This document shows positions 11,901 to 60,039 of a stretch of 64,000 nucleotides of DNA, one piece after another; within the stretch, counting starts at the first letter, position 1, and every line of letters begins with the position of its first letter. A program made the position numbers and the translations under genes. The DNA lies in IMG/VR virus record IMGVR_UViG_3300024261_000026, positions 1-64,000 of that record; one strand, given 5' to 3'. This stretch comes from a virus. A model generated the notes under the pieces. It was not told the DNA's origin. It saw only the letters and a list, made by a program, of their open reading frames with translations, and made no database searches.

Positions 11901-12666
11901 AGGTATTGAGGGGTACTGGTCTAGAATAAGAATAGTTGCAACTGGTTCTACTGCCCCTGTGTCTCTTGAATACATCAATCTATCGCCACACATTGCCACC
12001 TTCAATGGCATCGGTCAAAGAAATGCAAACGGGTTGGCGATGTGGAGAGAAACTATCGCTGGAACAGGCAACATCTTTGGCGAGACGGGCGGAGTAATCA
12101 GTGCCAATCCCGCTATCGGTTCTGGCGGCGGAGTTACTGGGTGGAACCACAACATGAAGAACAGTCTACTGAACCAAACAGGAGATGCTATCTATACACA
12201 GTTCGCATTGCCAGGCGGTATATGTACCTCATACCCTTTGCGAGTAAATCTGATTTATAGTTTGTCAAATAATTCTACACAAACATCTCCCCCAACTGGA
12301 ACGATGTCACTGTTAGCTCTTGAAGCCGCCGGGGTAGAAGTGGCAGACCCAGCTGGCGGCGAAGAACCAGTTTTACGATCTTTTAGTGCTACGGAAACAT
12401 TCACCGCAAAGGCAGCATCAGCAATTGTGGCGAATCTCATCCCAGATGGAATAACACTCCCGGCAGCAAATCTAGACAGTAAGGTGATTAAAACTCACTT
12501 TGATTCATACGACATCAGTTCTTATTATGAGGATGATATAATAGCGATTAGGTTTGAACTTACTAATGATGGCACACCTAACCAAGATATTACTGTATGG
12601 GCAGTTGTAATCGAAGGTGTTAAATTTTCAGATGGTAAGGTAGTAGACCATGCTCATCATATTTAG
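2983..12666 (+). CDS. Giant modular tail fibre protein, 3,227 residues
   Basis: This is the largest gene of the window. A short N-terminal part is followed by about six Kelch-like repeats (residues about 130-425) carrying TWEYDGTTWTQ-type and VLFGG-type motifs, as in beta-propellers. Residues about 560-2140 are tandem modules built on VTLTGSQTLTNKIISGTFSG, GSHTGSFTGSF and GDGSGLTG, interrupted by GDVTGNVLG microrepeats that continue to about residue 2470. A pectate-lyase-like right-handed beta-helix starts near 2520, and the C-terminal 400 residues look like a receptor-binding head. Fibres of this composition bind host surface polysaccharide or receptor. ATG 2983 follows AGGA at 2968-2971. 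The QTLTNK repeat type is common in phage fibres. The number of copies and the Kelch domain are unusual. Confidence 0.88.
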   Translation: MVKKGIAVYKSGSATDVTFRFLEDGSSRQGFGYTSSLHQITGALDLTGTLRLDISGTADGYMLVSDADGNASWRFSASSSQLPGGDDYQVQYNLNNDFTASADLEFSASSTYSTLRVTGSTELFGPANYSWTQKHPTTRPTAVIDIANAYDPDREVIVAFGGATSAGVAQSQTWEWDGQQWNQKFPATSPSARRGLLQSMVYDPDRKVFVLFGGNTGGTSFAETWEYDGTTWTQIVTATTPSSRTLASLVYDKVQKKVIMFGGATFGPTTPNNETWEYDGTDWTLLSPATSPAARFGAGMAYDESRNITVLAGGTTTSGATQETWEYNGTTWTQILPSTLPVLGIGDIAFTYDPLQKTVILYGANSSVQLLKYDGAVWTDITAEVGTPTPAGASSQIVRNITEYDVGRQELFVYGGLGYEIPTQTTLTGSWVLKQADVLTAAERKSYFLEDKDSKGQFTYALGVVNISGSSNALRVDTNLSKKALYVSGDSVDISGSTRMGTLSGHSHQVTGALQVTGTLKLDISGSLISGYVLTTDTAGNASWQPNTTSSFAAYAAEAGKVTNALSDGTGITAFTYDGSSVETVSIDESIVVTLTGSQTLTNKIISGTFSGSHTGSFTGSFAGDGAGLTGITAEWDGTHVGDAQITGTLYVTEGVEAQSFTGSLLGDIVGDLTGNVLGTSSFSDEAAKVSSELTDGTGITDFTYDGSSPATVSIDESIVVTLTGSQTLTNKIISGTFSGSHTGSFTGSFIGDGSGLTGLTGSVSAALTGAFGVVPFSYDGSSTAEVAIDDTIIVTLTGSQTLTNKIITGSFSGSHTGSFTGSFAGDGSGLTGITAEWDGTHVGDAQITGTLYVTEGVEAQSFTGSLLGDVVGDVTGNLLGTASFADEAAKVSSALTDGTGITNFTYDGSSPATVSIDQSIVVTLTGSQTLEDKIISGSFSGSHTGSFTGSFIGDGSGLTGITASVMLEPLTGAFGIVPFTYDGSSTADVAVDDTVIVTLTGSQTLTNKIISGSFSGSHTGSFTGSFFGDGSGLTGITASVMLEPLTGAFGIVPFTYDGSSTADIAVDDTVIVTLTGSQTITNKIISGTFSGSHTGSFTGSFAGDGSGLTGVTSIDTLDDVTSRGSTTANSITIGSFLSNGDSVISGNLDITDTLTAREFHTQIISSSIIYDSGSTKFGDSADDFHQFTGSIGLVSGNVVAPSFTGSFLGDLVGTASEAGKVTNALVDGTGISNFTYDGSSLATVEIDQSIVVTLTGSQILTNKTGSFSGSFTGSFLGDGSGLTGVTASLSEPLTGAFGIVPFTYDGSSTADVAVDDTVIVTLTGVQTLTNKIVSGTFSGSHTGSFTGSFAGDGSGLTGVTAEWDGTHVGDAQITGTLYVTEGVEAQSFTGSLLGDVVGDLTGNVLGNLVGDVTGNLLGNVLGDLTGDVTGNVLGNLTGDVTGNVLGNITGDLVGTASFATEASKVTSALTASYGIVPFTYDGSSPEHVEVDTSLIVTLTGSQTLTNKVISGTFSGSHTGSFTGSFIGDGSGLTGLTGTVSAPLTGAFGIVPFTYDGSSTADVAVDDTVIVTLTGSQTLTNKIISGTFSGSHTGSFTGSFAGDGSGLTGITAEWDGSHTGDASITGTLYVTDAIEAPSFTGSLLGDITGDVTGNVLGTASFATEAAKVSNALTASYGIVPFTYDGSSTAHVEVDTSLIVTLTGSQTLTNKIISGTFSGSHTGSFTGSFAGDGSGLTGITAEWDGTHVGDAQITGTLYVTEGVEAQSFTGSLLGDVVGDLTGNVLGDLVGDVTGNLLGTASFADEAAKVSNALTASYGIVPFTYDGSSTAHVGVDTSLIVTLTGSQTLTNKIISGTFSGSHTGSFTGSFAGDGSGLTGVTAAETDTLDDVTTRGNTTTNNIVVGGITSSAGGVITGSFIITGSAEITGTLDVLGNVSASGFYGDLFGTASEASSVTNALSDGTGITTFTYDGSSTATVAIDSTVVTLTGAQTLTNKIITGSFSGDLVGDVTGNVLGNVVGDITGDVTGNVLGNLTGDVTGNVLGNITGDLVGTASFATEAAKVSNALTASYGIVPFTYDGSSTAHVGVDTSLIVTLTGSQTLTNKIISGTFSGSHTGSFTGSFAGDGSGLTGVTAVATPGGVDQNIQFNSGSTFSGSDNLNFDYGTNTLTLTGTLEVSGSGAGAVEITGTLDVLGNVSASGFYGDLIGTASFATEAGKVTNALSEGTGITSFTYDGSSVATVSIDQAIVVTLTGSQTLTNKIITGSFNGDLVGDVTGNLLGNVVGDITGDVTGNVLGNLTGDVTGNVLGDLTGDVTGNMLGNITGDLVGTASFATEAGKVSNALTGGTGITSFTYDGSSTATVEIDSTVVTLTGVQTLTNKTITGSFSGDLVGDVTGNVLGNLTGDVTGNVLGDVVGNLTGNVLGNLTGDVTGNVLGNLTGDVTGNVLGDVVGNLTGNVLGNLIGDVTGNLLGTASYADEAGKVTNALTGGHGIEAFTYDGSATAEVTLASGTVALIDDTGKSTFYTTLSSALGVSVDGETIHVFPGEYPENNLTVPVGVTVRGIGGWAVTRIGTTSSLSNIMTLSDDSYIDNLSFNVPTGSNLASVVYTGSAGKTSGISNLTFFGDGASGLGDGIVIEHSGSGNSSKMIGSEIRLDLGGVNSLATVRSGIMAFESIHVPASAGTVNNVIQAIGTGRTQIISLNVGNSNVTNAMYMSGTSTNNVFNVNLFNCLNAFYFAEDGVDFDLAGGKVEVAQFTGFVDPAVTFTTASSISLNGVFEPAFSFPPAALDADFAMQFYQKNSTTRTAALRVLGSDLRVGFPEKGNSTLMGQGGQYGDKVTFLSTDDTATTVSDGGNFIDISTEASSLTGSTFTFQTASAGSTILMCSNRFSSTNLSLKHYGFQHKTSVGDISGSYAFDVWNGTAWEETPAQATSVVHSHRYANNVFMRSNIKEDIQYGEASTVSGSWVEKTIRGIEGYWSRIRIVATGSTAPVSLEYINLSPHIATFNGIGQRNANGLAMWRETIAGTGNIFGETGGVISANPAIGSGGGVTGWNHNMKNSLLNQTGDAIYTQFALPGGICTSYPLRVNLIYSLSNNSTQTSPPTGTMSLLALEAAGVEVADPAGGEEPVLRSFSATETFTAKAASAIVANLIPDGITLPAANLDSKVIKTHFDSYDISSYYEDDIIAIRFELTNDGTPNQDITVWAVVIEGVKFSDGKVVDHAHHI
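3370..4260 (+). repeat. Kelch-like propeller repeats in the fibre
   Basis: About six units of 45-50 residues repeat the pattern YDPxRKxxVLFGG, then ETWEYDGTTWTQ, then a proline/serine-rich turn ending in AR. This is the Kelch/galactose-oxidase type of blade. Such propellers commonly bind carbohydrate or protein. No catalytic residues are claimed. Confidence 0.7.
4660..9400 (+). repeat. Tandem fibre modules, 12 copies of GSHTGSFTGSF
   Basis: The protein motif GSHTGSFTGSF occurs 12 times, each time within a larger unit with FTYDGSS, VTLTGSQTLTNK and GDGSGLTG. The DNA copies differ strongly at synonymous positions: the first GSHTG copy uses ggttcccacaccggc and the next uses ggatcacatactggc. The protein repeats are therefore far more similar than the DNA repeats. 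Confidence 0.9.
7160..10395 (+). repeat. GDVTGNVLG-type microrepeats
   Basis: Four clusters (about 7160-7345, 8995-9130, 9783-9965 and 10140-10395) consist of 8-9 residue units of the form G-D/N-V/L-T-G-N-V-L. Each cluster ends in GTASF or GTASY. Copy number differs between clusters, which suggests expansion and contraction of the fibre shaft. Confidence 0.85.
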
Positions 12667-33270: not shown

Positions 33271-34517
33271 AATATAGTTTTGGATCAAACGAGCTACCTG
33301 CTAGTTCTTCTTACAACGAGAGGGATAGATATGCAAAGAATTATCCAAGAGGGTATTCTCAGCATGTCTCTGTGGACTACTGGTACGACAATATGCTTTT
33401 TGGCAGAATCGATCAGAACCAAGATGTCATCTATCCCGCCACGGATGCAATAAAAGTATTAGATGGTGATGGTCAGGTTAGCGCGATCAACTTTGTTGCA
33501 GATGCTTTTAATGCAATGCGAAATGATGTAAAAGAGAACATCAGGGTTGGCGCGATACCATCATCGGGGTTTGGCATTTTAGCGGGCGGACTGGAAGCGA
33601 AGAAGGGATGGCAAGATCCAAGACAAGATTACTTTTCTTTTATGAGAAATTTATATTCTCAGAGCCTTTTCCCGTTCCTCAAGAGACCAGAGATAAACAA
33701 TGATATTCTAAATTTCTCAGACTTTGTGGATCAGTTTACATTGTTCATTGATCGTATTACTCTCTTGCAACCATATACGATGACGGATTATATTACGAGC
33801 AACCTAGGAACACCACTCTACAGCGGATGGGCAATTGAAATCAATGACTCGCTGGATCACGGGGAAGATATATCAAAGATTGCGCTCTATGTAAATGATC
33901 CGCAGTTCGAGACATATCGACAGATCGCAGCAAGTAACGGATTCAACCTAGACAAGAATGCGCCGTGGAGATTGGTGGCGATACCATATGCCCCGCAGAT
34001 AAGCACCATGGTGGAGAGATACCTCCCTATTGAAACAGATACAGCGGAGAACATCCAAGTTCAAAATATCTACGATAGAGTAATCAAGGAACTCTATAAC
34101 AAGTCTCACTTTTCCGACATCCCAGATCTTAAATTTTACTTGAAAGATTTTTATAATATCTTTGTGAAGCGCAAGCCCACCGTGCACGTTCCGCTGATAA
34201 AGGGAGAAAATCGAAAAAGAAGCTTGACAAGGGTTGTGAGGCGTGATATTATGACGGACGAGCAATATAAAGAAGAGTGGGAACCAGACAACGCCTTTTG
34301 GATACGCCTGTATGTGTATGTCAGAGCGAAAGAAACAAACCGAGATTGGAATCAGTACAAATTTGAGCAGGTGTCAACAAAAGCACTTCAGTTCTTTAAG
34401 TATTCCGGAGAAGAAGCGGCGCATAAGTTTATCAACAAGGAAGTTAGAAGACTGTGGGGCGAAGATAGAGCAATCGGAAAGTACCGCAGAGGGAATTTTA
34501 GATTTCAAAGAAAGTGA
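33267..34517 (+). CDS. Baseplate-region structural protein, unknown
   Basis: This 416-residue protein starts in an ATGA overlap with the stop codon of the 973-residue gene, so the two are translationally coupled. It is soluble and aromatic-rich, with segments such as YWYDNMLFGRIDQNQDVIYP and DFYNIFVKRKPTVHVPLI. It is the last gene of the contiguous structural block. A sigma70-type promoter (34224-34252) lies inside its coding region and may serve the replication genes that follow. No domain is recognised. Confidence 0.68.
   Translation: MKYSFGSNELPASSSYNERDRYAKNYPRGYSQHVSVDYWYDNMLFGRIDQNQDVIYPATDAIKVLDGDGQVSAINFVADAFNAMRNDVKENIRVGAIPSSGFGILAGGLEAKKGWQDPRQDYFSFMRNLYSQSLFPFLKRPEINNDILNFSDFVDQFTLFIDRITLLQPYTMTDYITSNLGTPLYSGWAIEINDSLDHGEDISKIALYVNDPQFETYRQIAASNGFNLDKNAPWRLVAIPYAPQISTMVERYLPIETDTAENIQVQNIYDRVIKELYNKSHFSDIPDLKFYLKDFYNIFVKRKPTVHVPLIKGENRKRSLTRVVRRDIMTDEQYKEEWEPDNAFWIRLYVYVRAKETNRDWNQYKFEQVSTKALQFFKYSGEEAAHKFINKEVRRLWGEDRAIGKYRRGNFRFQRK
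34224..34252 (+). promoter_or_regulatory. Sigma70-type promoter inside the last structural gene
   Basis: TTGACA (34224-34229), a 17-base spacer and TATTAT (34247-34252). It would start transcription about 270 bases before the family A polymerase start codon and so feed the replication block independently of late transcription. Confidence 0.5.
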
Positions 34518-34524
34518 GGGTAGA

Positions 34525-35700
34525 TTGTTTTATACAATCCTCGACTCAAAAGAAGAGTGCTTAGGATATTATTATGACGGTGGTATCCACGAGCAAAAAC
34601 CAGACACCAGCAAACACTATATAACTTGGGACTACAAGCACCACCACCACCAGGACGGTGCTCAGTATCTGAATTTGTATTGTGGGGGGAAACCTATCTC
34701 TGCCTTTTGCCCGCCCCACTTGCAGAGAGAGTGGGAGATCTCCCAGGAGAAAAAGAAGGCATTCGGTAATGCTATTTCCAACAGCAAGGTAAAGATAGAT
34801 GATGTCTGTATTTATGATCTCATTCCTTTGTGGTTTCTGAGGGAGAACTCTCAGCTGAGATGTGAGATACTCCAAGAGATACACAGTACAAGAGATAGAC
34901 CAAAGTCGTATGATTTTATGCTCGAACTGGAAAAACTCTTTGGGGAGATATCGCAAAATCAACTTAGTGTTGATATTAGTGCGCTCCGTGATAAGAGGGG
35001 CCAGACTGCGGTTAGAAACTTTATCAAGAGGATAAAGGGAAAGACAACGATTAAATATAACCAGTTCGGCACCGTGACTGGAAGACTAACTGTGTCTAGC
35101 GATAGTTTTCCCATTATGAATGTGAATCATTCTTTTCGGAATATCCTAAAACCAAACAACGATCTTTTTGTGGAGTTTGATTATAACGCAGCAGAGTTGA
35201 GAACCCTTCTCGCCCTTTCGGAAAGAGAGCAACCACAAGAAGACATACACGAGTGGAATATTAAAAATGTTTTTAAACGACACATGACAAGGGAAGAGGC
35301 GAAGAAAAAGATATTCGCGGCGATATATAACCCGAACACAAAACAGGATTATTATCAAATAGACAAGGTGCTGGAAAAGCACTACGCCCAAGGTCAAGTC
35401 ACTACTCCCTTTGGCAGAGAGATAGACTGTGACGACGGACACGCTCTAAACTATACACTTCAGAGCACCACCAGCGATTTGGTGCTGGAACAGACCATAA
35501 AGATAAACAAACTCCTGGAGGGCAAGAAATCAAAGATTGTGTTTTTGATTCACGACAGTTTTGTTGTCGATTTGGCACAGGAAGAGCGATCTCTGATTTT
35601 CGAAATCAAGGAAATTTTTTCTCAGAACAGATTTGGAGATTTTTTGGTCAATGTAAGTGCCGGTAGGGACTTTGGCAGCATGAAGGAGATTGCTATATGA
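34525..35700 (+). CDS. polA: Family A DNA polymerase, short form
   Basis: This protein has about 391 residues from TTG 34525, which has GAGGG at 34516-34520 overlapping the previous stop codon. The frame is open further upstream, but only inside the structural gene. Polymerase motifs are all present: a T-motif (TVTGRLTVSSDSFPIMN), motif A DYNAAELR (Asp219), motif B R256-x3-K260-x3-F264-x3-Y268-N, and motif C HDS (343-345). Motif C has Ser where most family A enzymes have Glu. About 200 N-terminal residues do not show exonuclease motifs. A second, family C polymerase is encoded at 46.4 kb, so this enzyme may be accessory (repair or primer removal). Confidence 0.82.
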   Translation: MFYTILDSKEECLGYYYDGGIHEQKPDTSKHYITWDYKHHHHQDGAQYLNLYCGGKPISAFCPPHLQREWEISQEKKKAFGNAISNSKVKIDDVCIYDLIPLWFLRENSQLRCEILQEIHSTRDRPKSYDFMLELEKLFGEISQNQLSVDISALRDKRGQTAVRNFIKRIKGKTTIKYNQFGTVTGRLTVSSDSFPIMNVNHSFRNILKPNNDLFVEFDYNAAELRTLLALSEREQPQEDIHEWNIKNVFKRHMTREEAKKKIFAAIYNPNTKQDYYQIDKVLEKHYAQGQVTTPFGREIDCDDGHALNYTLQSTTSDLVLEQTIKINKLLEGKKSKIVFLIHDSFVVDLAQEERSLIFEIKEIFSQNRFGDFLVNVSAGRDFGSMKEIAI

Positions 35701-36539
35701 TTAACGTAATTGGACTCGGAAATGCGGGATGCGAGATAGCAGAGAGGTTTTCGCAATACCCTCAATACGAGGTATATAAGATAGACGTATCACTCAAGAA
35801 GCAGAAGAATTGTTTTTCTATGCCAAGCAGGAAAGCCGTAGAGGAATATGAAAGCAAGTTCCCGGCGAGGATACTAACATCTCTCAGAAAGATTCAGGGT
35901 GACATCTTGTTCATCGTTGGAGGAGGGGGAGAAGTATCATCAGCATCTCTTAGGATCTTAGAGGCGGTAAGCAAAAATAAGATAGAGGTGCTCTATGTAA
36001 AGCCGGATGAATCTATTGTCTCTGATGACGAAAGACTTCTCGATAAGATATCCTTTGGAGTGTTACAGCAATATGCTCGCTCGGGCCTTTTTGAGAGATT
36101 GTATCTTGTTTCTAATTCTGAGATCCAGAGAACAGTGGGAAATATCCCTATTAGCAAATATTACGATACCCTCAACGAGATCATTTCCTCTACGATCCAT
36201 ATGGTGAATGTATACAGAAACAGCAAGCCGACCATTTCAAGTTTTCCGAAGGAATCTGAGGTTTGCCGTATTTGTACCATAGGAATCGGGGAGATAGAAA
36301 AAATGACAGATCAGATGTATTTTTCTCTTGACAACACGAACGAAAAGAGGTATTATTTCGCTATCAACAAAAAGGAATTAGAAGAAAGCACCACTTTGCT
36401 AGCAAAGATCAAAACGAGGGCGAGGCAGAAGGATAATGACATAAAAGGAGGATTTGGAATATATCCGACAGAGTATAAGAAGAACTACATTTATATCGTC
36501 GAGCAGACGAAGATAATTCAAGGAGAAAATCATGGTTAA
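35697..36539 (+). CDS. Divergent FtsZ/tubulin-like protein
   Basis: This 280-residue protein is coupled to polA by an ATGA overlap. The N-terminus MINVIGLGNAGCEIAERF matches the first nucleotide-binding loop of FtsZ. Residues 69-84 (GDILFIVGGGGEVSSAS) match the FtsZ strand plus tubulin signature loop, although the canonical GGGTGSG is altered. A following EVLYVKPD strand and a LFERLYLVSN strand (Asn140) fit the next FtsZ elements. The C-terminal T7-loop aspartates needed for GTP hydrolysis are not apparent. It may be a filament-forming phage tubulin, or a degenerate regulator that binds host FtsZ. Only fold-level similarity is claimed. Confidence 0.55.
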   Translation: MINVIGLGNAGCEIAERFSQYPQYEVYKIDVSLKKQKNCFSMPSRKAVEEYESKFPARILTSLRKIQGDILFIVGGGGEVSSASLRILEAVSKNKIEVLYVKPDESIVSDDERLLDKISFGVLQQYARSGLFERLYLVSNSEIQRTVGNIPISKYYDTLNEIISSTIHMVNVYRNSKPTISSFPKESEVCRICTIGIGEIEKMTDQMYFSLDNTNEKRYYFAINKKELEESTTLLAKIKTRARQKDNDIKGGFGIYPTEYKKNYIYIVEQTKIIQGENHG

Positions 36540-36816
36540 AGTTTTTACAGGAACTTTTCAGAAAAAGAATAATGATACAAGAAGCATGACATTTGTTAAA
36601 CTAGAAGATCTGCCAAAGGATTTTTTAGGATCAAAAGTCAAGAACGAAAACTCAACACGCACCCTTCCAGAAGGACTGGAGTTGGTGTGGGATATTGACA
36701 GTGCCGGATTTCGCACCTTCAATTGGCAATCTGCCGTAGGCGATGTCAAGGTGGAAATCCTCAAGGGAAAAGAAAAAGACGATTTCGAAACAAAACACTT
36801 GACAGAGCAAAAGTGA
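36532..36816 (+). CDS. Small conserved phage protein, unknown
   Basis: This 94-residue protein begins MVKVFTGTFQKKNNDTRSMT and has a central block EGLELVWDIDSAGFRTFNWQ. It looks like a small beta-rich domain. It overlaps the FtsZ-like gene by eight bases and has AAGGAGAAAA before the ATG. The promoter of the SSB gene overlaps its 3' end. I recall similar small proteins next to replication genes of marine phages, without function. Confidence 0.65.
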   Translation: MVKVFTGTFQKKNNDTRSMTFVKLEDLPKDFLGSKVKNENSTRTLPEGLELVWDIDSAGFRTFNWQSAVGDVKVEILKGKEKDDFETKHLTEQK

Positions 36817-36858: not shown

Positions 36859-37605
36859 ATGGCTATTGATATGAAAAAGATGAAAGCGAAATATAGTAAC
36901 CTCAAGAACCGTGCTGGTTCTGGTTCGAGTGGGTTTTGGAAACCCTCGGAGGGATCACAAACATTGCGTATTGTTCCCACTGAGGATGGAGATCCATTCA
37001 AGAGTTACTCTTTCCACTATGGAGTAGGAAAGGAAAACGGATTTTTATGCCCAAACAAGAATTTTGGGGATGATTGTCCTGTGTGCAGTTTCGTTCGCGG
37101 ACTGTATCAGGAAGGTGATGAAGAAAGTAAGGCAATGGCACGCCAACTAGGTGCCAAGTCTCGGTTCTTTTCTCCGGTGCTGGTTCGCGGAGAAGAGGAT
37201 GCGGGAGTCCGAGTTTGGGGATTTTCCAAGACGGTGTATGAAACCTTATTGAATCTGGTTTTGAATCCTGATTATGGCGACATAACGGATACTGAGACTG
37301 GTATTGATTTGGACATTCACTATGCGAAGCCACCAGGAGGTCAATTTCCTGTGACCAAGGTGACACCCAAGCGACGCTCTAGTGCCCTTTGTACTGATAA
37401 ACTTACCGAGGAACAGTGCAAAGAGGTATTAAACAATGTGCCAGATTTTGAATCGCTCTTTGAGCGAAAGACGACATCTAATGTCCAAGGATATTTGGAT
37501 GAGCATCTGGCGTCCGACAACCCTGAAGGTTTCTCTAGTGAAACGGAGAAATATTCGGGCGCAGGCAGAGTTGATAACGCCTTAGATGAATTAATGGGCG
37601 GATAA
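36859..37605 (+). CDS. 32: Single-stranded DNA-binding protein, T4 gp32-like
   Basis: This 248-residue protein has the gp32 layout. A basic N-terminal LAST-like motif (KYSNLK, residues 11-16) is used in T4 for cooperative binding. The zinc site is H53, C64, C73 and C76 with T4-like spacing, and a negatively charged C-terminus would contact replication partners. It coats single-stranded DNA during replication and recombination. It has its own strong promoter, an AAAAGGAG site and a terminator behind it, which fits the high amounts of gp32 needed. Confidence 0.9.
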   Translation: MAIDMKKMKAKYSNLKNRAGSGSSGFWKPSEGSQTLRIVPTEDGDPFKSYSFHYGVGKENGFLCPNKNFGDDCPVCSFVRGLYQEGDEESKAMARQLGAKSRFFSPVLVRGEEDAGVRVWGFSKTVYETLLNLVLNPDYGDITDTETGIDLDIHYAKPPGGQFPVTKVTPKRRSSALCTDKLTEEQCKEVLNNVPDFESLFERKTTSNVQGYLDEHLASDNPEGFSSETEKYSGAGRVDNALDELMGG

Positions 37606-37670: not shown

Positions 37671-38789
37671 ATGAAAAACAAGAAGAGTGGTAAACTCAGT
37701 ATCGCCGACATGCGTTCGCTGATTAACAAAAAAGCAGGAATGGTTGTCGCGCACGATTTGTCCTCCGAAAACCCAACAGAGGTTACGGATTGGATCCCCA
37801 CTGGATCAACTTGGTTGAACGCTATTATTTGCCGAGGGAAGATGGCAGGAATCCCTGTTGGCAAACTCACAGAGATTGCGGGGATGGAAGCGAGTGGCAA
37901 AAGTTATATGGCCGCCCAGACTTGCGCGGAAGCACAGAAGATGGGAATTTCTGTGGTTTATTTTGATTCTGAATCTGCAATTGATCCGACATTTCTGACG
38001 AAGAGTGGTGTTGATATTGACAACATTCTATATGTTCAAGCTACGTCTGTTGAGTTTGTGTTGGAAACAGTTGAGACCCTTTTGACTTCGAGTGACGATA
38101 AATATCTTTTTGTGTGGGATTCTCTGGCGCTTACGCCAGCGATCAGTGACGTGGAGGGAACATTCAACCCGAATGAGTCCGTCGCCGTCAAGGCGCGGGT
38201 GCTGGCGAAAGGGATGTCTAAGTTGATAGTCTCCTTGGCAAACTCTCAGTCTACTCTTTTAGTCCTTAACCAACTTAAAACAAACCTCCAGGTTGTAAAT
38301 CCAAAGTATGCTACTGATAGCGAGAAGTATGTCTGCCCCGGCGGAAAGTCTATGGCATACGCCTATAGTCTTCGCATATGGTTGACCGGCAGGAAGGGCA
38401 AGAGTAGCATGATACTCGACGACAAAGGATATAGGGTGGGGAACGAACTGAAGGCGAGACTAGAGAAATCTAGGTTCGGCACAGCAGGTAGGACTTGCAA
38501 TTTTAAGATTATGTGGGGAGAGGATATCGGAGTCAAAGACGAAGATAGTCTATTTGAGGCAATTCAGAGTTCTGACCACTTGGGCAGCGCAGGACCGTGG
38601 TGGACGCTCAAATATGAAGACGGCACAGCGCAGAAATTCCAAGCATCTAAATGGGGCGACTTTATGAAGGAGAAGAAATTTAACGACAGGGTTATGCAAC
38701 TCCTAGACGAGGAAGTGGTTCTCAAGTTTGACAAGAGACTGGTGGAGGCGAGTAACTTCTACGAGGAAGAGGAGGTCGAAGAAGCGTGA
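37671..38789 (+). CDS. uvsX: RecA-like recombinase UvsX
   Basis: This 372-residue protein has the RecA fold signatures: Walker A GMEASGKS (71-78), VVYFDSESAI and the Walker B-like strand YLFVWDSLALTPA, then a LLVLNQLKTN strand (L2-like region). UvsX forms filaments on single-stranded DNA and drives recombination-dependent replication together with gp32. The length fits T4 UvsX (391). It lies between the SSB gene and small helper genes. GGGAGT before ATG 37671 is a moderate site. Confidence 0.92.
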   Translation: MKNKKSGKLSIADMRSLINKKAGMVVAHDLSSENPTEVTDWIPTGSTWLNAIICRGKMAGIPVGKLTEIAGMEASGKSYMAAQTCAEAQKMGISVVYFDSESAIDPTFLTKSGVDIDNILYVQATSVEFVLETVETLLTSSDDKYLFVWDSLALTPAISDVEGTFNPNESVAVKARVLAKGMSKLIVSLANSQSTLLVLNQLKTNLQVVNPKYATDSEKYVCPGGKSMAYAYSLRIWLTGRKGKSSMILDDKGYRVGNELKARLEKSRFGTAGRTCNFKIMWGEDIGVKDEDSLFEAIQSSDHLGSAGPWWTLKYEDGTAQKFQASKWGDFMKEKKFNDRVMQLLDEEVVLKFDKRLVEASNFYEEEEVEEA

Positions 38790-38971
38790 GCACCGATAAG
38801 TCTCTTAGAGAGACAGTAAATATAGCACTAGATGCGGTGGAGAGACTTCTTGATGAAGTCTGGACGCTGCGAGATGCTCGTGTCAAGATGAAGAAGCAGA
38901 TAAGAACTCTGCGAGATAAAATAAAGAGATTGGAAGAGAAGAATGACAAAAAAGAGGATGATGATAGTTGA
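38786..38971 (+). CDS. Small coiled-coil protein
   Basis: This 61-residue, almost wholly helical and charged protein starts at GTG 38786, overlapping the UvsX stop codon (GTGA). Heptads run through LRDARVKMKKQIRTLRDKIK, and the end is Lys/Glu/Asp-rich. Its position between UvsX and the exonuclease gene suggests a partner of recombination proteins, in the way UvsY partners UvsX, but there is no sequence support for UvsY. Its 3' end overlaps the next gene by 29 bases. Confidence 0.6.
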   Translation: MSTDKSLRETVNIALDAVERLLDEVWTLRDARVKMKKQIRTLRDKIKRLEEKNDKKEDDDS

Positions 38972-39917
38972 TGGCCATAATGCCTTCATCAGACACTACA
39001 TCGTAAACCCGACAATTTCCGCTAATGGGCAACCCATCGGCGGAATTGTTGGTTTTCTACAAGGACTCCAGAAACTTTCCAGGATGATCAAACCAGATAT
39101 GATAACCGTGGTTTGGGATGGCGCCGGCGGCAGCAGGAAGCGAAGAAGCATCATCAAAGGATATAAAGAAGGAAGGAAACCCGTCAGACTTAATCGCTTC
39201 ATACGGAACCTGCCTGAGAACGAGGAGGCAGAAAACCTTATGTGGCAGCAAGTGAGAATTCTAGAGTATCTCAATGAAACTCCAGTTGTCCAGTTTATGT
39301 TTCCCGAAACCGAAGCAGACGATGTTATTGCTTATGTCAGCACTTACCATCAGTTTGATGATTGGCAGAAGGTTGTCGTATCCAGTGATAAAGACTTCTT
39401 TCAGATCTGCGACGATTCGACAGTGCTGTACCGTCCTATTCAAGATGAGATAGTAAACAAGAACGCGATTGTGAAGAAATTCCTCATCCACCCCAATAAT
39501 TTCGCTCTTGCTAGGGCACTAGCAGGAGACAAATCAGACAACTTGCCGGGTGTGCCGAGAGTTGGCCTTGCAACAGTAGCAAAGAGATTGCCTTTTCTTG
39601 CCGAGGAGAAAAGTTATATGACTTCGGAGTTGAAGGATTATTGCGAAGAAAGAAAGGACGAAAAGGTAAGATTTTATAGGGATGTCCTCGACAACATTGA
39701 ACTGATCAGGATAAACTATAAGGTGATGCAATTATATTCTCCATCGCTATCCATACCGACATCATCAAAGATAAAGGAGACGTTCAGCAGTCACTTGCCT
39801 TTATTCAACAACACCGGTGTCGTGAAACTGCTGTTCGAGGACGGATTTCCGCAGGTTAATTTAGACGAACTATATGCTTTGTTTCGAAAAATGATTTTTG
39901 AATCTAAAACAAAATGA
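38943..39917 (+). CDS. rnh: 5'-3' exonuclease / RNase H, FEN-like (T4 rnh-like)
   Basis: This 324-residue protein has the FEN/5'-nuclease pattern: MMIVDGHNAFIRHYI near the start with the first metal-binding Asp, TVVWDGAGGSRKRRSII, the PETEADDVIAY acidic cluster, VVVSSDKDFFQI, and LAGDKSDNLPGVPRVGL, the helix-hairpin-helix. T4 RNase H of this family (305 residues) removes RNA primers from lagging strands. The ATG overlaps the coiled-coil gene. Strong match across all catalytic blocks. Confidence 0.92.
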   Translation: MTKKRMMIVDGHNAFIRHYIVNPTISANGQPIGGIVGFLQGLQKLSRMIKPDMITVVWDGAGGSRKRRSIIKGYKEGRKPVRLNRFIRNLPENEEAENLMWQQVRILEYLNETPVVQFMFPETEADDVIAYVSTYHQFDDWQKVVVSSDKDFFQICDDSTVLYRPIQDEIVNKNAIVKKFLIHPNNFALARALAGDKSDNLPGVPRVGLATVAKRLPFLAEEKSYMTSELKDYCEERKDEKVRFYRDVLDNIELIRINYKVMQLYSPSLSIPTSSKIKETFSSHLPLFNNTGVVKLLFEDGFPQVNLDELYALFRKMIFESKTK

Positions 39918-39963: not shown

Positions 39964-41340
39964 ATGGAACAAATGAGAGATGCGACATTCGGATCCTTCG
40001 GTAAAGGATTTCAAGAGTCATTAGCAAAGATGATACTGGAAGACTCCAAGTTTTCGACGCAGATCGGGGAAGTCCTCGATATAAACTTTTTCGAATTAAA
40101 GTATTTGCAAGAATTCGTGAGAAAGATCTATTCTTACAAGAAGAAATACAAGAAGCACCCGTCAGCGAGCACTTATGAGAGCATCCTCAAGAGCGAAGAC
40201 TCCTCCTCTCAAAGTGAGATTATAAGAAAGCAAGTCAGAGAATTCTATGTTCGCATCAAGACAGGCAACTATGATGATGTTGACGAGGAGTTTGTAAGGG
40301 ATAAGTCTCTTGATTTCTGCCGTAAGCAAACTCTGCAAGGCGCCATGCTCAAGAGCGTCAAATTGATGCAAGATTCATCTTTCGACGAAGTGAGCAAGAT
40401 CATCAATGAGGCGCTCAAACTCGGGGTGAATAATGACGTTGGATATGATTTCCTTGAGGACTTCGAGAGAAGGTATCAGTTGAGGTCTAGGAATCCGGTC
40501 ACCACAGGGTGGGGCGAGATAGATAGAATCGTTGCAGGCGGTCTAGGGAAGGGAGAACTGGGTGTTGTGATAGCACCAACTGGCGTTGGCAAAAGTATGG
40601 TACTCACCCACTTAGGAACAGAGGCGCTCAAGCTTGGAAAGAATGTTGTGCATTACACTTTGGAACTCCAAGATGTCATCATAGGGAACAGATATGATAG
40701 TTGTCTCACGGGCATCCCTATCAACGATCTGTACTTTAATAAGGAAGAGATATTCGAAGAAGTAAAGAAAGTTCCAGGGAAACTTTTGATAAAAGAATAC
40801 CCTACCAAAAGTGCGACTACGCAGACTCTGAAAACTCACTTGGAGAAACTTAAGAATCGGGATTTTAGCCCCGATATGATTATTGTTGATTATGGAGATA
40901 TTTTGAAACCTATTTTCCACTCAAAAGAGAAAAGAGAAAATCTCGAAACTATTTATGAAGAGTTAAGGGCAATTGCACAAGAATTCGAGTGCCCGGTCTG
41001 GACCGCCTCTCAAACTAACAGGAGTGGGATAAACGCCGAAGTTATAACAATGGAATCAATTAGCGAGGCATTCTCGAAATGCTTTGTGGCTGACTTCATC
41101 TTCTCGGTGTCAAGAACAGGTTCGGATAAATCTAACAATACAGGTAGAATATATATTGCCAAGAATAGGAACGGCATCGATGGAGTGGTGTTTCCAATTT
41201 TTATGGATCCTGGCAATGTTGAAATAAAAGTGTTCGCCCAAACAGAGATGACGGAAGAGTCCGGCGACAATGGTCCGAGGAAAGTCTATAGATTAATGAA
41301 AGAAGAGCAGAGAACCAAACAAACAACAAAAGGAGAGTAA
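39964..41340 (+). CDS. 41: Replicative DNA helicase, DnaB/gp41-like
   Basis: This 458-residue protein has an N-terminal helical domain (residues 1-160) and a RecA-like motor: Walker A APTGVGKS (204-211), VVHYTLELQ, Walker B-like DMIIVDYGDI and WTASQTNRSG (sensor region). It should form the hexamer that unwinds DNA ahead of the polymerase on the lagging-strand template. The length matches T4 gp41 (475). No primase gene is in this window. It has its own promoter and runs into the ribonucleotide reductase gene after six bases. Confidence 0.9.
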   Translation: MEQMRDATFGSFGKGFQESLAKMILEDSKFSTQIGEVLDINFFELKYLQEFVRKIYSYKKKYKKHPSASTYESILKSEDSSSQSEIIRKQVREFYVRIKTGNYDDVDEEFVRDKSLDFCRKQTLQGAMLKSVKLMQDSSFDEVSKIINEALKLGVNNDVGYDFLEDFERRYQLRSRNPVTTGWGEIDRIVAGGLGKGELGVVIAPTGVGKSMVLTHLGTEALKLGKNVVHYTLELQDVIIGNRYDSCLTGIPINDLYFNKEEIFEEVKKVPGKLLIKEYPTKSATTQTLKTHLEKLKNRDFSPDMIIVDYGDILKPIFHSKEKRENLETIYEELRAIAQEFECPVWTASQTNRSGINAEVITMESISEAFSKCFVADFIFSVSRTGSDKSNNTGRIYIAKNRNGIDGVVFPIFMDPGNVEIKVFAQTEMTEESGDNGPRKVYRLMKEEQRTKQTTKGE

Positions 41341-41346
41341 GAAAAC

Positions 41347-43215
41347 ATGCAAGAAACAATGGAACTATCAAGTAAAATTTTGAGTGATATTACAGTTTAT
41401 ATGAAATATGCCAGGTATTTAGAGAAAGAAGAGAGAAGAGAAACCTGGGAAGAGTTAGTTACCAGAAACAAGCAGATGCACCAAAAGAAGTATCCTGATT
41501 TACACGATAAGATTGAGGAAGCATATAAACTTGTTTATGAAAAAAAGATTTTGCCATCCATGAGATCCTTGCAGTTTAGTGGGAAACCCATTGAAATTTC
41601 TCCCAACCGAGTTTACAATTGCGCATACGCCCCTGTTGATGATTGGCGCGTGTTTAGTGAGATTCTTTTTTTGCTTCTGGGAGGCACGGGCGTGGGATAT
41701 AGCGTGCAAACGCACCACGTAGAAAAGTTGCCAGAGATAAGAAAACCAAACCCCAACAAATCTAGGCGATACTTGGTCGGCGATAGCATAGAGGGGTGGG
41801 CAGACTCAGTTAAGGTGCTGATGAAATCTTATTTTCGGGGCACATCTACTATTGATTTTGATTTTAGCGACATTCGCGCCAAGGGCGCTATGTTGGTAAC
41901 AAGCGGTGGCAAGGCGCCAGGACCAGAGCCGCTTAAGACGTGCCTTCGACAAATTAAGAGTATCTTGAACCACAAGGAAGACGGCGAACAATTGTCGTCA
42001 ATCGAGGTTCACGATATTGTTTGTCATATTGCTGACGCTGTGCTTGCTGGTGGCATTCGCCGAGCGGCATTGATATCTTTGTTTTCCGCAGACGACGAAG
42101 AGATGATCTCTTGCAAGTATGGCAACTGGTTCGAACTAAACCCTCAACGCGGCCGCTCTAACAACAGTGCGGTTTTGCTGAGGCATAAAGTTGATGAAGA
42201 ATTCTTTTTTAATCTATGGGAAAAGATCCAGTTGAGCAATTCGGGGGAACCCGGCATCTACTTTTCTAATGATAAAGATTACGGCACAAACCCGTGCTGC
42301 GAGATAGCATTGCGACCCTTTCAGTTTTGCAACTTGTGCGAAGTTAACGCCTCCACTATTGAGACACAAGAAGATCTGGAAAACCGCATTGGTGCAGCAA
42401 CTCTCATTGGCACATTGCAGGCCGGATATACTAATTTCCATTATCTCCGCTCAGTGTGGCAAAAGACAACAGAGAAGGAGTCGTTGCTCGGAGTATCTTT
42501 GACGGGCATCGCGTCTAACAAGATTCAGCACCTAGACATGAAAAAGGCAGCAAGATTTGCCAAAGAAAAGAACAAGGAGATCGCCAAACAGATCGGCGTA
42601 AATCTCGCATCTCGCATTACAACTATTAAACCAGCGGGTACTACTTCTTTGGCTTTGGGGTGCTCTTCGGGCATCCATGCGTGGCATAGCAAGTATTATA
42701 TTCGCAGAATAAGAGTGGGAAAGAACGAAACCATCTATGGATATCTCGCAAAGAATCATCCAGAATTGATAGAGGATGAGTTTTTTCGCCCCCACGACAC
42801 CGCCGTTATATCAGTGCCACAGCGCGCCCCAGAGGGATCAACATTCCGAACCGAAAGTCCGCTGGATCTATTAGAGAGGATCAAGTGGTTTTCGAAGAAT
42901 TGGATTAAACCAGGCCACCGACGCGGGCAGAATACTCACAACATCTCTGCAACAATATCCATAAAGGAAGACGAGTGGGATGTTGTTGGGAAATGGATGT
43001 GGGATAATCGAGGATGCTACAACGGCATATCCGCCCTCCCCTATGGCGGGGGTTCTTATGTCCAGGAACCATTCGAGGAGTGCTCAGAGGAGACCTATAA
43101 CAAGATGATGGAATCTCTGGTTGGCGTTGATCTTACTCAAGTGGTGGAGACAGAGGATAACACAGATTTACAGGGAGAACTCGCTTGTGCCGGCGGCGTG
43201 TGCGAGATAAAATAA
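41347..43215 (+). CDS. nrdJ: Adenosylcobalamin-dependent ribonucleotide reductase, class II
   Basis: This 622-residue protein has features of monomeric class II enzymes of the RTPR type: GGTGVGYSVQTHHVEKLPEI, GGIRRAALISLFSADDEEM, the NPCCEIALRPFQFCNLCE active-site block (about residue 315), and a C-terminal CAGGVCE redox pair (residues 614-619). It makes deoxynucleotides from ribonucleotides using vitamin B12, which works with or without oxygen. It is about 120 residues shorter than the Lactobacillus enzyme. The C-terminal cysteines would be reduced by a thioredoxin or glutaredoxin; a glutaredoxin is encoded at 61.2 kb. Confidence 0.88.
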   Translation: MQETMELSSKILSDITVYMKYARYLEKEERRETWEELVTRNKQMHQKKYPDLHDKIEEAYKLVYEKKILPSMRSLQFSGKPIEISPNRVYNCAYAPVDDWRVFSEILFLLLGGTGVGYSVQTHHVEKLPEIRKPNPNKSRRYLVGDSIEGWADSVKVLMKSYFRGTSTIDFDFSDIRAKGAMLVTSGGKAPGPEPLKTCLRQIKSILNHKEDGEQLSSIEVHDIVCHIADAVLAGGIRRAALISLFSADDEEMISCKYGNWFELNPQRGRSNNSAVLLRHKVDEEFFFNLWEKIQLSNSGEPGIYFSNDKDYGTNPCCEIALRPFQFCNLCEVNASTIETQEDLENRIGAATLIGTLQAGYTNFHYLRSVWQKTTEKESLLGVSLTGIASNKIQHLDMKKAARFAKEKNKEIAKQIGVNLASRITTIKPAGTTSLALGCSSGIHAWHSKYYIRRIRVGKNETIYGYLAKNHPELIEDEFFRPHDTAVISVPQRAPEGSTFRTESPLDLLERIKWFSKNWIKPGHRRGQNTHNISATISIKEDEWDVVGKWMWDNRGCYNGISALPYGGGSYVQEPFEECSEETYNKMMESLVGVDLTQVVETEDNTDLQGELACAGGVCEIK

Positions 43216-43281: not shown

Positions 43282-43557
43282 ATGACAAAGAGTAGTTTAA
43301 AGGTTGTTGAGTCGGCAGAAGTTAAAGAAGAAAAGATTGTTGATTACATCAAATCGTTGTCGGCCCTCGAAGAAGAGATGGAGCCCTACAAAGAGCAAAA
43401 GCGGGCATTGAAGCAAAATTACATCGAGAACGGATGGCTCAGCAAAGAAGAGATCTCGGCGGCAGTTAAGGCATTTCGCCTGATGAAGAGCGAGGTTGAC
43501 CTAGAGCAGATGAAGGATTTCTTTGATCTATATTCGAAGACGAAGGTGTGCGGGTGA
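43282..43557 (+). CDS. GapR-like (DUF2312-type) helical protein
   Basis: This 91-residue helical protein has the pattern LSALEEEMEPYKEQKRALKQ, then a GWLSKEEISAAVKAFRLMK segment and FDLYSK. It resembles the layout of DUF2312/GapR, a small protein that binds overtwisted DNA ahead of replication forks in alphaproteobacteria. Glu/Lys spacing and the R-L-x-K turn fit, but identity is low, so this is tentative. It shares its promoter class with SSB and DnaE. AAGGAG before ATG 43282 is a good site. Confidence 0.4.
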   Translation: MTKSSLKVVESAEVKEEKIVDYIKSLSALEEEMEPYKEQKRALKQNYIENGWLSKEEISAAVKAFRLMKSEVDLEQMKDFFDLYSKTKVCG

Positions 43558-43829
43558 AGTATATACCATTTAACCGGCACTTGGTGCTAGAGGAGCATGA
43601 CACTAATGAGGAGACTTCTGTTTCGAAGGTATTGGTACCTGACGACTATAAAAGCATTAAAGATCATGGTATTTATAGGATTGTGGGCAAGTCTCTGGAC
43701 TGCTCTCCAGTATTTGCCACTGGTGCTAGAGTGGTTGTAGAAGAGTCGATGGTGAGAGCTATCGAGATGGGCGCCGAGAAAATATTTTTAATCCCAGAGA
43801 ATTTCGTACTTCTTTATGAGGACGGATGA
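43554..43829 (+). CDS. GroES-like co-chaperonin
   Basis: This protein is about 91 residues from GTG 43554, which has GAAGG seven bases upstream; GTG 43548 is also in frame. The sequence reads MKYIPFNRHLVLEEHD, then a polar loop, then VSKVLVPDDYKSIKDHGIYR, TGARVVVEES and EKIFLIPENFVLLYED. This follows the GroES beta-barrel plan (N-terminal strand, mobile loop, V-L-P, G-x-x-V-V, final strand). T4 encodes gp31, a GroES replacement needed to fold gp23. A phage GroEL is encoded at 58.5 kb, which supports the call. Confidence 0.6.
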   Translation: MKYIPFNRHLVLEEHDTNEETSVSKVLVPDDYKSIKDHGIYRIVGKSLDCSPVFATGARVVVEESMVRAIEMGAEKIFLIPENFVLLYEDG

Positions 43830-51994: not shown

Positions 51995-52474
51995 ATGGAC
52001 AAACACACAAAAAAGGTGATGTTTAGCAGCAAAGATATGAGTTGGGAAACTCCGCAGGATTTCTTCGACAAGCTAGATCGAGATTTTAACTTTGACTTAG
52101 ATCCGTGCGCGACAAAAGAAACTGCGAAGTGTAAGGATTATTACACAGAAGAAGACGATGGGTTATCTAAGGATTGGGGTCCGTGCAAGACAGTCTTCGT
52201 AAACCCCCCTTATGGTAGGGATATCAAAAAGTGGATTAAGAAAGGATACGAAGAGGCGCAGAAGGACAAGACTACTGTCGTGATGCTTATACCAGCAAGA
52301 ACTGACACTTCTTATTGGCACGAATACTGCATGAAGGCATCTCAGATTTTCTTCGTGAAGGGCAGATTAAAGTTTGGTACCGCCACGACTGGCGCTCCAT
52401 TTCCTTCTGCTGTGGTGGTTTTCAAGTGGTATTCGGGAGGTGAAACTCCACAGATGGGTACCATTGACAGATAA
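51995..52474 (+). CDS. DNA N6-adenine methyltransferase, phage Dam type
   Basis: This 159-residue protein has the small phage N6-MTase pattern: SWETPQDFFDKLDRDFNF, then FDLDPCAT (33-40, SAM-related), and the catalytic NPPYGR (70-75). It is only a catalytic core, so it probably recognises a short site. Enzymes of this family often methylate GATC. Several phage promoters carry GATC, so methylation may affect regulation or protect from restriction, which is inference. AGAAAGGACC precedes ATG 51995. Confidence 0.85.
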   Translation: MDKHTKKVMFSSKDMSWETPQDFFDKLDRDFNFDLDPCATKETAKCKDYYTEEDDGLSKDWGPCKTVFVNPPYGRDIKKWIKKGYEEAQKDKTTVVMLIPARTDTSYWHEYCMKASQIFFVKGRLKFGTATTGAPFPSAVVVFKWYSGGETPQMGTIDR

Positions 52475-57510: not shown

Positions 57511-57541
57511 AGAACAGATCACTTTATTGATCGGAGGAACA

Positions 57542-58456
57542 ATGTCAGATCCACACAAAAGATGGAAAGACTACGATAAAGAACATTGCTGGCAGTATCA
57601 GATGAGAGAGGATAATCTCGGGGAAGATCTTCAAAATCTCCCTCCGTGGGTTGATTATAGAGAATTATCCACAAAAGATTTCGATTTTGAATATGTGGAC
57701 AAATCGGAAAAAGAGAAGTGCGATGAGATTCGTGATTTTATAAAGAAGCATGAGTGGCTAGGTAAACTACCAAATAGACCTACTCATCGATTTACTGCTC
57801 GCCTCAAGGAAGGAAGCATCCTCGCTGGCGTTATTATTATGGCAGTGCCGAATACATTTTCCCATTTGCTCGGGAAAGAAAACAGCAACCTTGAAAAACT
57901 AATCTCTCGTGGTGCATGCATTAGTTGGTCACCTAAGAATCTTGGATCGTGGCTGATAATGAAGTCTGTCAAGTGGATGGTTCAAAATACCGAGTTTAGG
58001 TATTTCACGGCATACTCCGATCCGGAAGCGAAAGAACTTGGAACGATCTATCAGGCGTGTAATTTCCTTTACCTAGGTAAGGGCGCAGGAGTGACAAAGC
58101 AATACTTTGATCCGAACAATCCCAAACAAGGGTGGTTTAGCGGGAGAGAGTTCAGAAAGAAATCAAAGTATTACAGATACGCCCAGGAGGTAGGCATCAG
58201 CAAGGAGCAATGGGCAAAGTGGATGAAGAAGTATAGCCCAGATTGGAATCTTGTGCCGACAATGGCGAAAAGTATGGTCAAGGAAAGAGAAAGAATATAT
58301 CGAGATAGTTGCCATGTTCGAGAGGTAGTTTCGAAGCACAAATATGTCTATATTCTCGGGAAAAGCAAGAAAGAGACAAAAAAGTTGAAACAAATCTTTA
58401 AAGAAAAGAACCCAAAATTGTATGATATGTCATACCCCGCTCATCGCGGGGAATAA
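57542..58456 (+). CDS. Mom-like GNAT-fold DNA modification protein
   Basis: This is a 304-residue protein from ATG 57542 with GGAGG upstream. The central region reads ILAGVIIMAVPN, then a strand, CISWSPKNLGSWLIMKSVKW, then AYSDPEAKELGTIYQACNF and LYLGKGAG. This order resembles phage Mu Mom, a GNAT-related enzyme that adds a carbamoylmethyl group to adenines and blocks restriction. A basic C-terminal tail (KSKKETKKLKQIF) may bind DNA. It sits in one operon with GroEL. It could also be an ordinary GNAT acetyltransferase. Confidence 0.65.
   Translation: MSDPHKRWKDYDKEHCWQYQMREDNLGEDLQNLPPWVDYRELSTKDFDFEYVDKSEKEKCDEIRDFIKKHEWLGKLPNRPTHRFTARLKEGSILAGVIIMAVPNTFSHLLGKENSNLEKLISRGACISWSPKNLGSWLIMKSVKWMVQNTEFRYFTAYSDPEAKELGTIYQACNFLYLGKGAGVTKQYFDPNNPKQGWFSGREFRKKSKYYRYAQEVGISKEQWAKWMKKYSPDWNLVPTMAKSMVKERERIYRDSCHVREVVSKHKYVYILGKSKKETKKLKQIFKEKNPKLYDMSYPAHRGE
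58435..58451 (+). other. Hairpin at the end of the Mom-like gene
   Basis: A 6-bp GC stem CCCCGC/GCGGGG with loop TCATC includes the last codons of the gene. No T tract follows, so it is probably a processing or stabilising hairpin rather than a terminator, and GroEL is likely co-transcribed. Confidence 0.45.
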
Positions 58457-58467
58457 CTGGAGGAACA

Positions 58468-60039
58468 ATGTCGAAAGAGTATCTCGATACGCAAAAAGGT
58501 CTAAACCAAAAGATATTAGACGGAATAAACAAACTGGCAGATAATGTCGCCGCCACAATGGGACCAAGAGGAAGAAATGTCATCCTCCACCCCAAGAACG
58601 GCAACCCAATAATCACGAAAGATGGAGTAACTGTTGCACGATTTATCGACTTCGATGATCCATTTGAAAACGTGGGTGCACAAGTAATCAAACAAGCGAG
58701 CGAGGAAACCAATGCCAGAGCAGGTGACGGCACCACAACTGCTATTGTCTTGTCGCGAGCAATCTTTGTGGAAGCACAAAAGCACATTGCAGCAGGAGCG
58801 TCCCCGGTTGAACTCAAGAGGGGAATTGATAAGGCGACTGATGTGATAGTCAGTAACCTTAAGACCATCGCGAAGAAGGTGACGAAGCTCGAAGACATTG
58901 AAGACATCGCCACAATATCAGCGAATGGCGACAGAACCATTGGCAAACTTATTTCAACAGCAATAGACATGATAGGAAAGGATGGGTCCATTACTATAGA
59001 GGATGGGAAGTCGCTTGAGACGAGCCTAGACGTCGTAGAAGGGTTTAGATTTGACAGTGGGTATGCCGCAGGTGCATTCGTCACAGACGAGCGTAGAGGC
59101 GTCCTCAAGCACAATGATCCACTATTCCTTATCACTGATGAAAAGATAGAATTTGTTGAAGATATCCTCCCAGTTCTAGAACTAATCGCCAGAGATGGGC
59201 GCCCACTGATTGTGGTAGCAGAAGACATCGAAGGGCAAGCACTCGCTGCAATGATTATGAATGCAGTGAGAGGAACTATGAAGGTCGCGGCAATCAAAGC
59301 ACCTAGGTATGGCGAGGAGCGCCGAGGCATCTTAGAAGACTTAGCTATCAGCGTGGGAGCGACATTTGTTTCTCGCGCATCAGGTCTGAAGATGAAGGAT
59401 GTTAAGTTATCTCACTTGGGTAGCGCGAAGACTGTTGAGGCGTCCAAAGTAATGACAACGATTGTTGGCGGAAAGGGCGATGATGCTTTGGTTGGGGAGC
59501 GCATCGATCTGCTTAAAGCGCAATTTGAACAGACAGACAACATGCAGGTGTGCGAGAGAATTCAGGAGCGCATCACCAGGTTAGCGAGCGGTATCGCCAT
59601 TATTAATGTGGGGGGTAACACCGAGGTTGAGATGGTGGAGAAGAAGCACCGAATCGAGGACGCCCTAGAGGCGGTGAAGTCAGCGCAGCAAGAGGGGATG
59701 GTCTCCGGCGGCGGCATGGCACTGCTTGCTGCATCCAAGAACATAGAGATAGACGCCACGAACGCAGATCAGGAACTAGGAGCGAAGATAATCCTTAAAG
59801 CGGTTGAAGATCCGCTGCGCCAAATGGCTCTGAACGCAGGGAATAAACCAGACGTTATCCTGGAAAAGGCATTCTCGGCAAAAGAAGGGGAAGGGTTTGA
59901 TTTGGCGACAGGCGAGATAGTAAATCTGATGGAGAAGGGTATTATAGATCCGGTAAAAGTAACTAGGTGTGCCCTTCAGAACGCCGCATCGGCAATCGGG
60001 ACGCTAATTACTACCAGTCATGCAATTATAGATAAATAG
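58468..60039 (+). CDS. groEL: GroEL-like chaperonin
   Basis: This 523-residue protein has the Hsp60 layout: MGPRGRNVIL, ITKDGVTVAR, the ATP-site GDGTTT (86-91, Asp87 equivalent to E. coli), an intermediate domain, VSGGGMALLAA, and the C-terminal block VKVTRCALQNAASAIGTLIT. The usual GGM-rich tail is absent, and the protein is slightly shorter than E. coli GroEL (548). It should form the folding chamber with the GroES-like protein at 43.6 kb and may fold gp23. GGAGG precedes ATG 58468. Confidence 0.92.
   Translation: MSKEYLDTQKGLNQKILDGINKLADNVAATMGPRGRNVILHPKNGNPIITKDGVTVARFIDFDDPFENVGAQVIKQASEETNARAGDGTTTAIVLSRAIFVEAQKHIAAGASPVELKRGIDKATDVIVSNLKTIAKKVTKLEDIEDIATISANGDRTIGKLISTAIDMIGKDGSITIEDGKSLETSLDVVEGFRFDSGYAAGAFVTDERRGVLKHNDPLFLITDEKIEFVEDILPVLELIARDGRPLIVVAEDIEGQALAAMIMNAVRGTMKVAAIKAPRYGEERRGILEDLAISVGATFVSRASGLKMKDVKLSHLGSAKTVEASKVMTTIVGGKGDDALVGERIDLLKAQFEQTDNMQVCERIQERITRLASGIAIINVGGNTEVEMVEKKHRIEDALEAVKSAQQEGMVSGGGMALLAASKNIEIDATNADQELGAKIILKAVEDPLRQMALNAGNKPDVILEKAFSAKEGEGFDLATGEIVNLMEKGIIDPVKVTRCALQNAASAIGTLITTSHAIIDK

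Follow-up and report, generated by a model that had tools for sequence, protein, structure and literature searches.

We report a 280-aa phage protein that appears to belong to the tubulin/FtsZ superfamily, as a branch with a degenerate catalytic site, and to be a core part of the replication module in uncultured marine T4-like phages, a reading to which we give a probability of about 0.5. Its gene lies in a 64-kb stretch of a 65.9-kb virus record (the whole of the DNA analysed, hereafter the window), and TUB is used here as a label for the protein of the open reading frame (ORF) at 35697-36539 (Table 1). To our knowledge, the tubulin relatives described in phages are dynamic GTPase filaments. 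If our reading is right, a static role in replication is also open to the tubulin fold, given that TUB keeps the base contacts while its catalytic loops are gone, and that it accompanies one polymerase gene. TUB would then be a core replication gene of an abundant marine phage group, for which no cultured member was found here, and it is an obvious candidate for structural and binding studies.

Table 1 Features of the TUB locus, of the rest of the window and of two records that encode T2, a second phage tubulin. Positions refer to the window unless a record handle precedes them, and residues to TUB.
Feature	Position	Strand	Evidence or remark
3227-aa ORF	2983-12666		Upstream of structural genes
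Stand-alone family-A DNA polymerase, polymerase domain	34312-35700	+	Pfam DNA_pol_A, E 1.4e-15; PHROG 17
ATGA overlap, TUB start and polymerase stop	35697-35700	+	Likely translational coupling
TUB, 280-aa divergent tubulin/FtsZ-like protein	35697-36539	+	ATG ORF; dN/dS; family of at least 593; profile match
T1-like phosphate loop GLGNAGC, residues 6-12, retained	35712-35732	+	G6 95/97, G8 97/97, G11 85/97
T3-equivalent, motif EEYE....P, residues 44-57	35826-35867	+	Paired by hhalign with FtsZ xPExG
Degenerate T4 signature VGGGGEVSSAS, residues 74-84	35916-35948	+	Family GSGxISGAS
Family-specific invariant Q124, R128, S129 (QQYARS)	36066-36083	+	97/97 each
T6-equivalent with N140, putative guanine contact	36111-36125	+	N 96/97; pairs with the T6 Asn of FtsZ, CetZ and T2
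H7-equivalent YYDTLNEIISSTIHMVN, residues 155-171	36159-36209	+	Aromatic Y156 and N160; invariant H168, N171
T7-equivalent lacking the catalytic aspartates, residues 176-190	36222-36266	+	No position >67% acidic, n = 97
94-aa protein, start overlapping TUB end	36532-36816	+	PHROG 1086, E 3.8e-4; function unknown
gp32-like single-strand DNA-binding protein (SSB)	36859-37605	+	Pfam gp32, E 6e-15
UvsX/RecA-like recombinase	37671-38789	+	PHROG and Pfam matches
5'-3' exonuclease (FEN/RNase H type)	38943-39917	+	PHROG and Pfam matches
DnaB-like replicative helicase	39964-41340	+	PHROG and Pfam matches
Ribonucleotide reductase (RNR)	41347-43215	+	PHROG 367, E 4e-125
Weak GroES/Cpn10 match	43548-43829		E 0.006
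Dam methyltransferase	51995-52474		E 1.5e-32
Mom-family (DNA modification) match	57527-58456		E 3e-12
GroEL-like chaperonin	58468-60039		PHROG 5725, E 4.5e-143
T2	L390:1226-2359	+	FtsZ/tubulin-family GTPase, predicted from sequence
T2	L391:887-1981	-	FtsZ/tubulin-family GTPase, predicted from sequence

TUB is a real gene because, in comparison with a relative that shares about 89% protein identity, dN is 0.063 and dS 0.99 (ratio 0.06), and it is under strong purifying selection. It is joined to the preceding polymerase gene by a literal ATGA overlap that likely represents translational coupling, and the arrangement is seen across the family, with the 4-base overlap at 72 of 158 loci and a TUB start no more than 29 nt from the polymerase stop at 128 of the 158. 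At its other end the gene overlaps the next ORF. A first-pass annotation of the window had described a divergent FtsZ/tubulin-like protein coupled to the polymerase gene, and both the coupling and the motifs it cited (GLGNAG at residues 6-11 and VGGGGEVSSAS at residues 74-84) are present as described.

Searches with single TUB sequences gave no match above the cut-off in Pfam, PHROGs, NCBIfam, PADLOC or the PDB. Below threshold, NCBIfam ftsZ was the model matched by most members (over residues 136-168, T6-H7, in the window protein); in Pfam, where all matches were likewise sub-threshold, TrkA_N was found in more members than Tubulin, which ranked second. Sporadic hits to unrelated families, each in an individual member, were put down to chance. 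A profile of 97 family sequences, compared by hhalign with a combined FtsZ, T2 and PhuZ profile, scored 93.9% (P 1.6e-7) over 163 co-linear columns, and still 65.2% (P 6e-5) over 113 columns after removal of residues 1-39. The score was 82.5% (P 9.7e-6) against divergent FtsZ, 77% (P 2e-5) against a single archaeal FtsZ and merely 18% (P 1e-3) against a Pseudomonadota-rich FtsZ alignment; it varies with the FtsZ sample, and the top value comes from the composite profile. The combined, divergent-FtsZ and archaeal-FtsZ alignments all cover residues 3-170 in the same register, from T1 to H7. T2 alone was not significant against TUB and is useful only within the combined profile. The C-terminal third (residues 188-276) found no profile match (P 0.2-0.65), although its length would fit an alpha/beta domain after H7.

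Among the controls, reversed or column-shuffled profiles reached at most 0.4%, eleven other gene families from the TUB loci gave P 0.004 or worse, and the minimum P for 127 unrelated single proteins was 0.025. When an FtsZ profile was run over 1414 viral ORFs, TUB members filled the first 52 ranks, and they kept the first 23 once 60 or 85 aa had been cut from the end that bears the glycine loop. Because all of these members belong to a single family, the ranking counts as just one independent draw and is modest evidence by itself; more weight rests on the profile-profile values and the accompanying controls. The same comparisons make it quite unlikely that TUB is a Rossmann-type nucleotide-binding replication protein of non-tubulin descent, with a likeness due to its glycine loop and convergence. 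Such an origin would suit the single-sequence Pfam matches, which favour NAD-binding domains at sub-threshold E-values, as well as the unmatched C-terminal third. However, NAD-type profiles, drawn from three NAD-Rossmann families singly or in random mixture, cover the loop only, score at most 33% over 17 columns in most draws and 47 at most, and collapse to at most 0.7% without residues 1-39, whereas FtsZ/tubulin keeps its 113 columns; the T6 and H7 positions are, moreover, near-invariant in TUB. A NAD-dependent enzyme was likewise rejected as an identity for TUB, given that the match stops at the glycine loop. At the level of sequence, residues 3-170 are homologous to the FtsZ/tubulin GTPase domain, and the divergent relationship that had been proposed is supported by the profile-profile comparison and its controls.

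The nucleotide pocket has been kept on one side and lost on the other. Besides the T1-like loop, TUB retains N140 in T6 and, on H7, N160 (96/97) and an aromatic residue at position 156 (Y/F/W in 85/97), which we take to be guanine contacts, as established for FtsZ and tubulin; H168 (96/97) and N171 (95/97) are also conserved on H7. In tubulins, T3, T4 and T7 form the longitudinal interface and the active site. The T3 glycines (GLGAG in FtsZ) are lost in the TUB family, in which EEYE is invariant (family alignment A2), and the T4 motif GGGTGTG (GGG[TS]G[TS]G) is replaced by the consensus GSGxISGAS. No acid is conserved in residues 172-195 (the highest value is 67% in 97 sequences), whereas the reference tubulins (FtsZ, CetZ, PhuZ and T2) have the first T7 aspartate in 22/22 and the second acid in 21/22. 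The family alignment thereby confirms two features pointed out earlier for the window protein, a changed signature loop and an absence of hydrolysis residues, the latter being those of T7. Judged by its motifs, which include neither the T4 nor the T7 signature, TUB does not read as a canonical tubulin/FtsZ GTPase, and we infer that it probably binds but does not hydrolyse a guanine nucleotide, either GTP/GDP or dGTP/dGDP. The family's own invariant residues are Q124, R128, S129, H168, N171, R191 and Y219, together with EEYE, and these may form a new surface for contacts or for a ligand.

Pattern and tblastn scans of IMG/VR retrieved 12, then 123 and then at least 593 TUB relatives, carried by hundreds of uncultured marine bacterial virus contigs of up to 190 kb, with one copy per record in the 17 records searched whole. 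No relative was found by tblastn with two members in 50,697 annotated phages, or in one scan of genome_contigs. In bacterial genomes the A2 family profile did not retrieve FtsZ directly, its sole match (E 0.06) covering model positions 4-44 only, and in the part of the open-access literature that title, abstract and full-text searches reach, no description of the family was found. The window virus itself is, by its predicted genes, a T4-like myovirus, because it encodes a major head protein, a tail sheath, a tail tube and a T4 baseplate protein. The window further contains a large ORF upstream of these genes, Mom and Dam matches that suggest a modified genome, and a GroEL-like chaperonin with a weak GroES match elsewhere; a survey of jumbo phages found tubulin to correlate with HSP60 (PMC7824862).

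The surroundings of the TUB gene are highly regular, and the recurrent order is polymerase - TUB - (94-aa ORF) - SSB - UvsX - FEN - DnaB - RNR, with the 94-aa ORF found at just 8-10 loci. The polymerase lies immediately 5' of TUB in 72 and the SSB immediately 3' in 77 of about 88 loci, and both are present at 155 of 170. In the reverse test, 77 of 78 polymerase loci retrieved independently of TUB carry it, and the one locus without it is on a contig that breaks off 1.6 kb downstream, beyond other genes. The linkage of TUB to one stand-alone family-A DNA polymerase is near-obligate, which is evidence of shared function or regulation and not of physical contact. As to the polymerase itself, its relatives align from residue ~70 of the window ORF, and the true start is probably near 34515. 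Its motif C reads HDS in place of HDE (an automatic motif count over 76 pattern-matching relatives gave E in 51 and S in 15), and a PolIII-like polymerase is encoded elsewhere.

In the mechanism that we envisage, a distant tubulin/FtsZ relative would have become a core component of the phage DNA-replication module, where, loaded with nucleotide, it would serve a polymerase/SSB/recombinase complex as a stable scaffold or as an accessory subunit and not as a dynamic filament. The most specific version, that a tubulin/FtsZ-fold protein serves hundreds of marine phages as an obligate, non-hydrolysing and non-cytoskeletal accessory subunit of the polymerase or replisome, we put forward tentatively, as somewhat doubtful.

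T2, a second and different FtsZ-like protein of 364-377 aa, was found by PF00091 in two TUB relatives and matches FtsZ structures at E 4e-7. Unlike TUB, it has intact T4 (GGGGGTGS) and T7 (SFDxxD) motifs. IMG/VR holds at least 216 relatives of T2, and tblastn with one member gave no match in annotated phages. TUB occurs in 8 of 21 T2 records, including the three largest, and most of the TUB records searched are without T2; because T2 was not detected in five TUB records of 155-190 kb or in the window record, TUB seems not to depend on it. Beside T2 in L391 lies an ORF that reads, by eye, as a T4 gp55-type late sigma factor. A diverged FtsZ-like protein is also found on a Marinomonas plasmid (L181:161-1123), where it is annotated as hypothetical, adjoins a PcfJ-domain gene and has its second T7 acid replaced (RIDFAH).

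About ten records carry an intact FtsZ-like GTPase alongside TUB, and a degenerate paralogue without T7 could poison a filament. In such a scheme TUB might be a decoy subunit, incorporated into or capping host FtsZ or the FtsZ-like GTPase that the phage itself encodes, and would thereby prevent assembly. We regard this as very unlikely, given the five large TUB records without a detectable second tubulin and the invariant place of TUB in the replication operon; the phage FtsZ inhibitors known to us are small and variable. The suggestion in the first-pass annotation of a host FtsZ antagonist gained no positive evidence, and the same invariant place points elsewhere.

Among known systems, bacterial and archaeal FtsZ (TIGR00065, PF00091) is the best profile match. 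TUB likewise has the T1 glycine loop, the order of elements through H7, the T6 Asn and an aromatic and a polar residue on H7, but it is without the FtsZ motifs T3 GLGAG, T4 GGGTGTG and T7 NxDxxD and the FtsZ C-terminal tail, and it belongs to a replication operon whereas FtsZ belongs to a division cluster. The TubZ segregation proteins of plasmids and phages, compared here by description, are members of the same superfamily. TubZ is a cytomotive GTPase whose dynamics require a C-terminal tail (PMC5322520), and in the TubZ of phiKZ the T7 aspartate works across the subunit interface (PMC3678025). TUB has neither a long tail of this kind nor the T7 acid. That TUB is nevertheless a PhuZ- or TubZ-like filament, which positions or segregates replicating phage DNA by a non-canonical interface or very slow hydrolysis, is unlikely in our estimate. 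Its superfamily homology and its co-expression with replication genes would fit such a filament, as would the intact FtsZ-like GTPase of some TUB phages, which places tubulin biology in the group, but besides the missing tail, T3, T4 and T7 are degenerate or lost and the similarity to PhuZ is weak. A static, degenerate member of the superfamily within the replication module remains our preferred reading. A particular link to PhuZ had been drawn in the first-pass annotation, and it is not upheld by the PhuZ profile, which scores at most 3.8% in hhalign (P 0.01-0.12). PhuZ of phiKZ-like jumbo phages is, like TUB, a phage-encoded superfamily member thought to serve replicating phage DNA; it retains a GG[GA]SG-type T4 and an LDxxD T7, unlike TUB, and its phiKZ-like carriers differ from those of TUB, which are T4-like by their structural genes.
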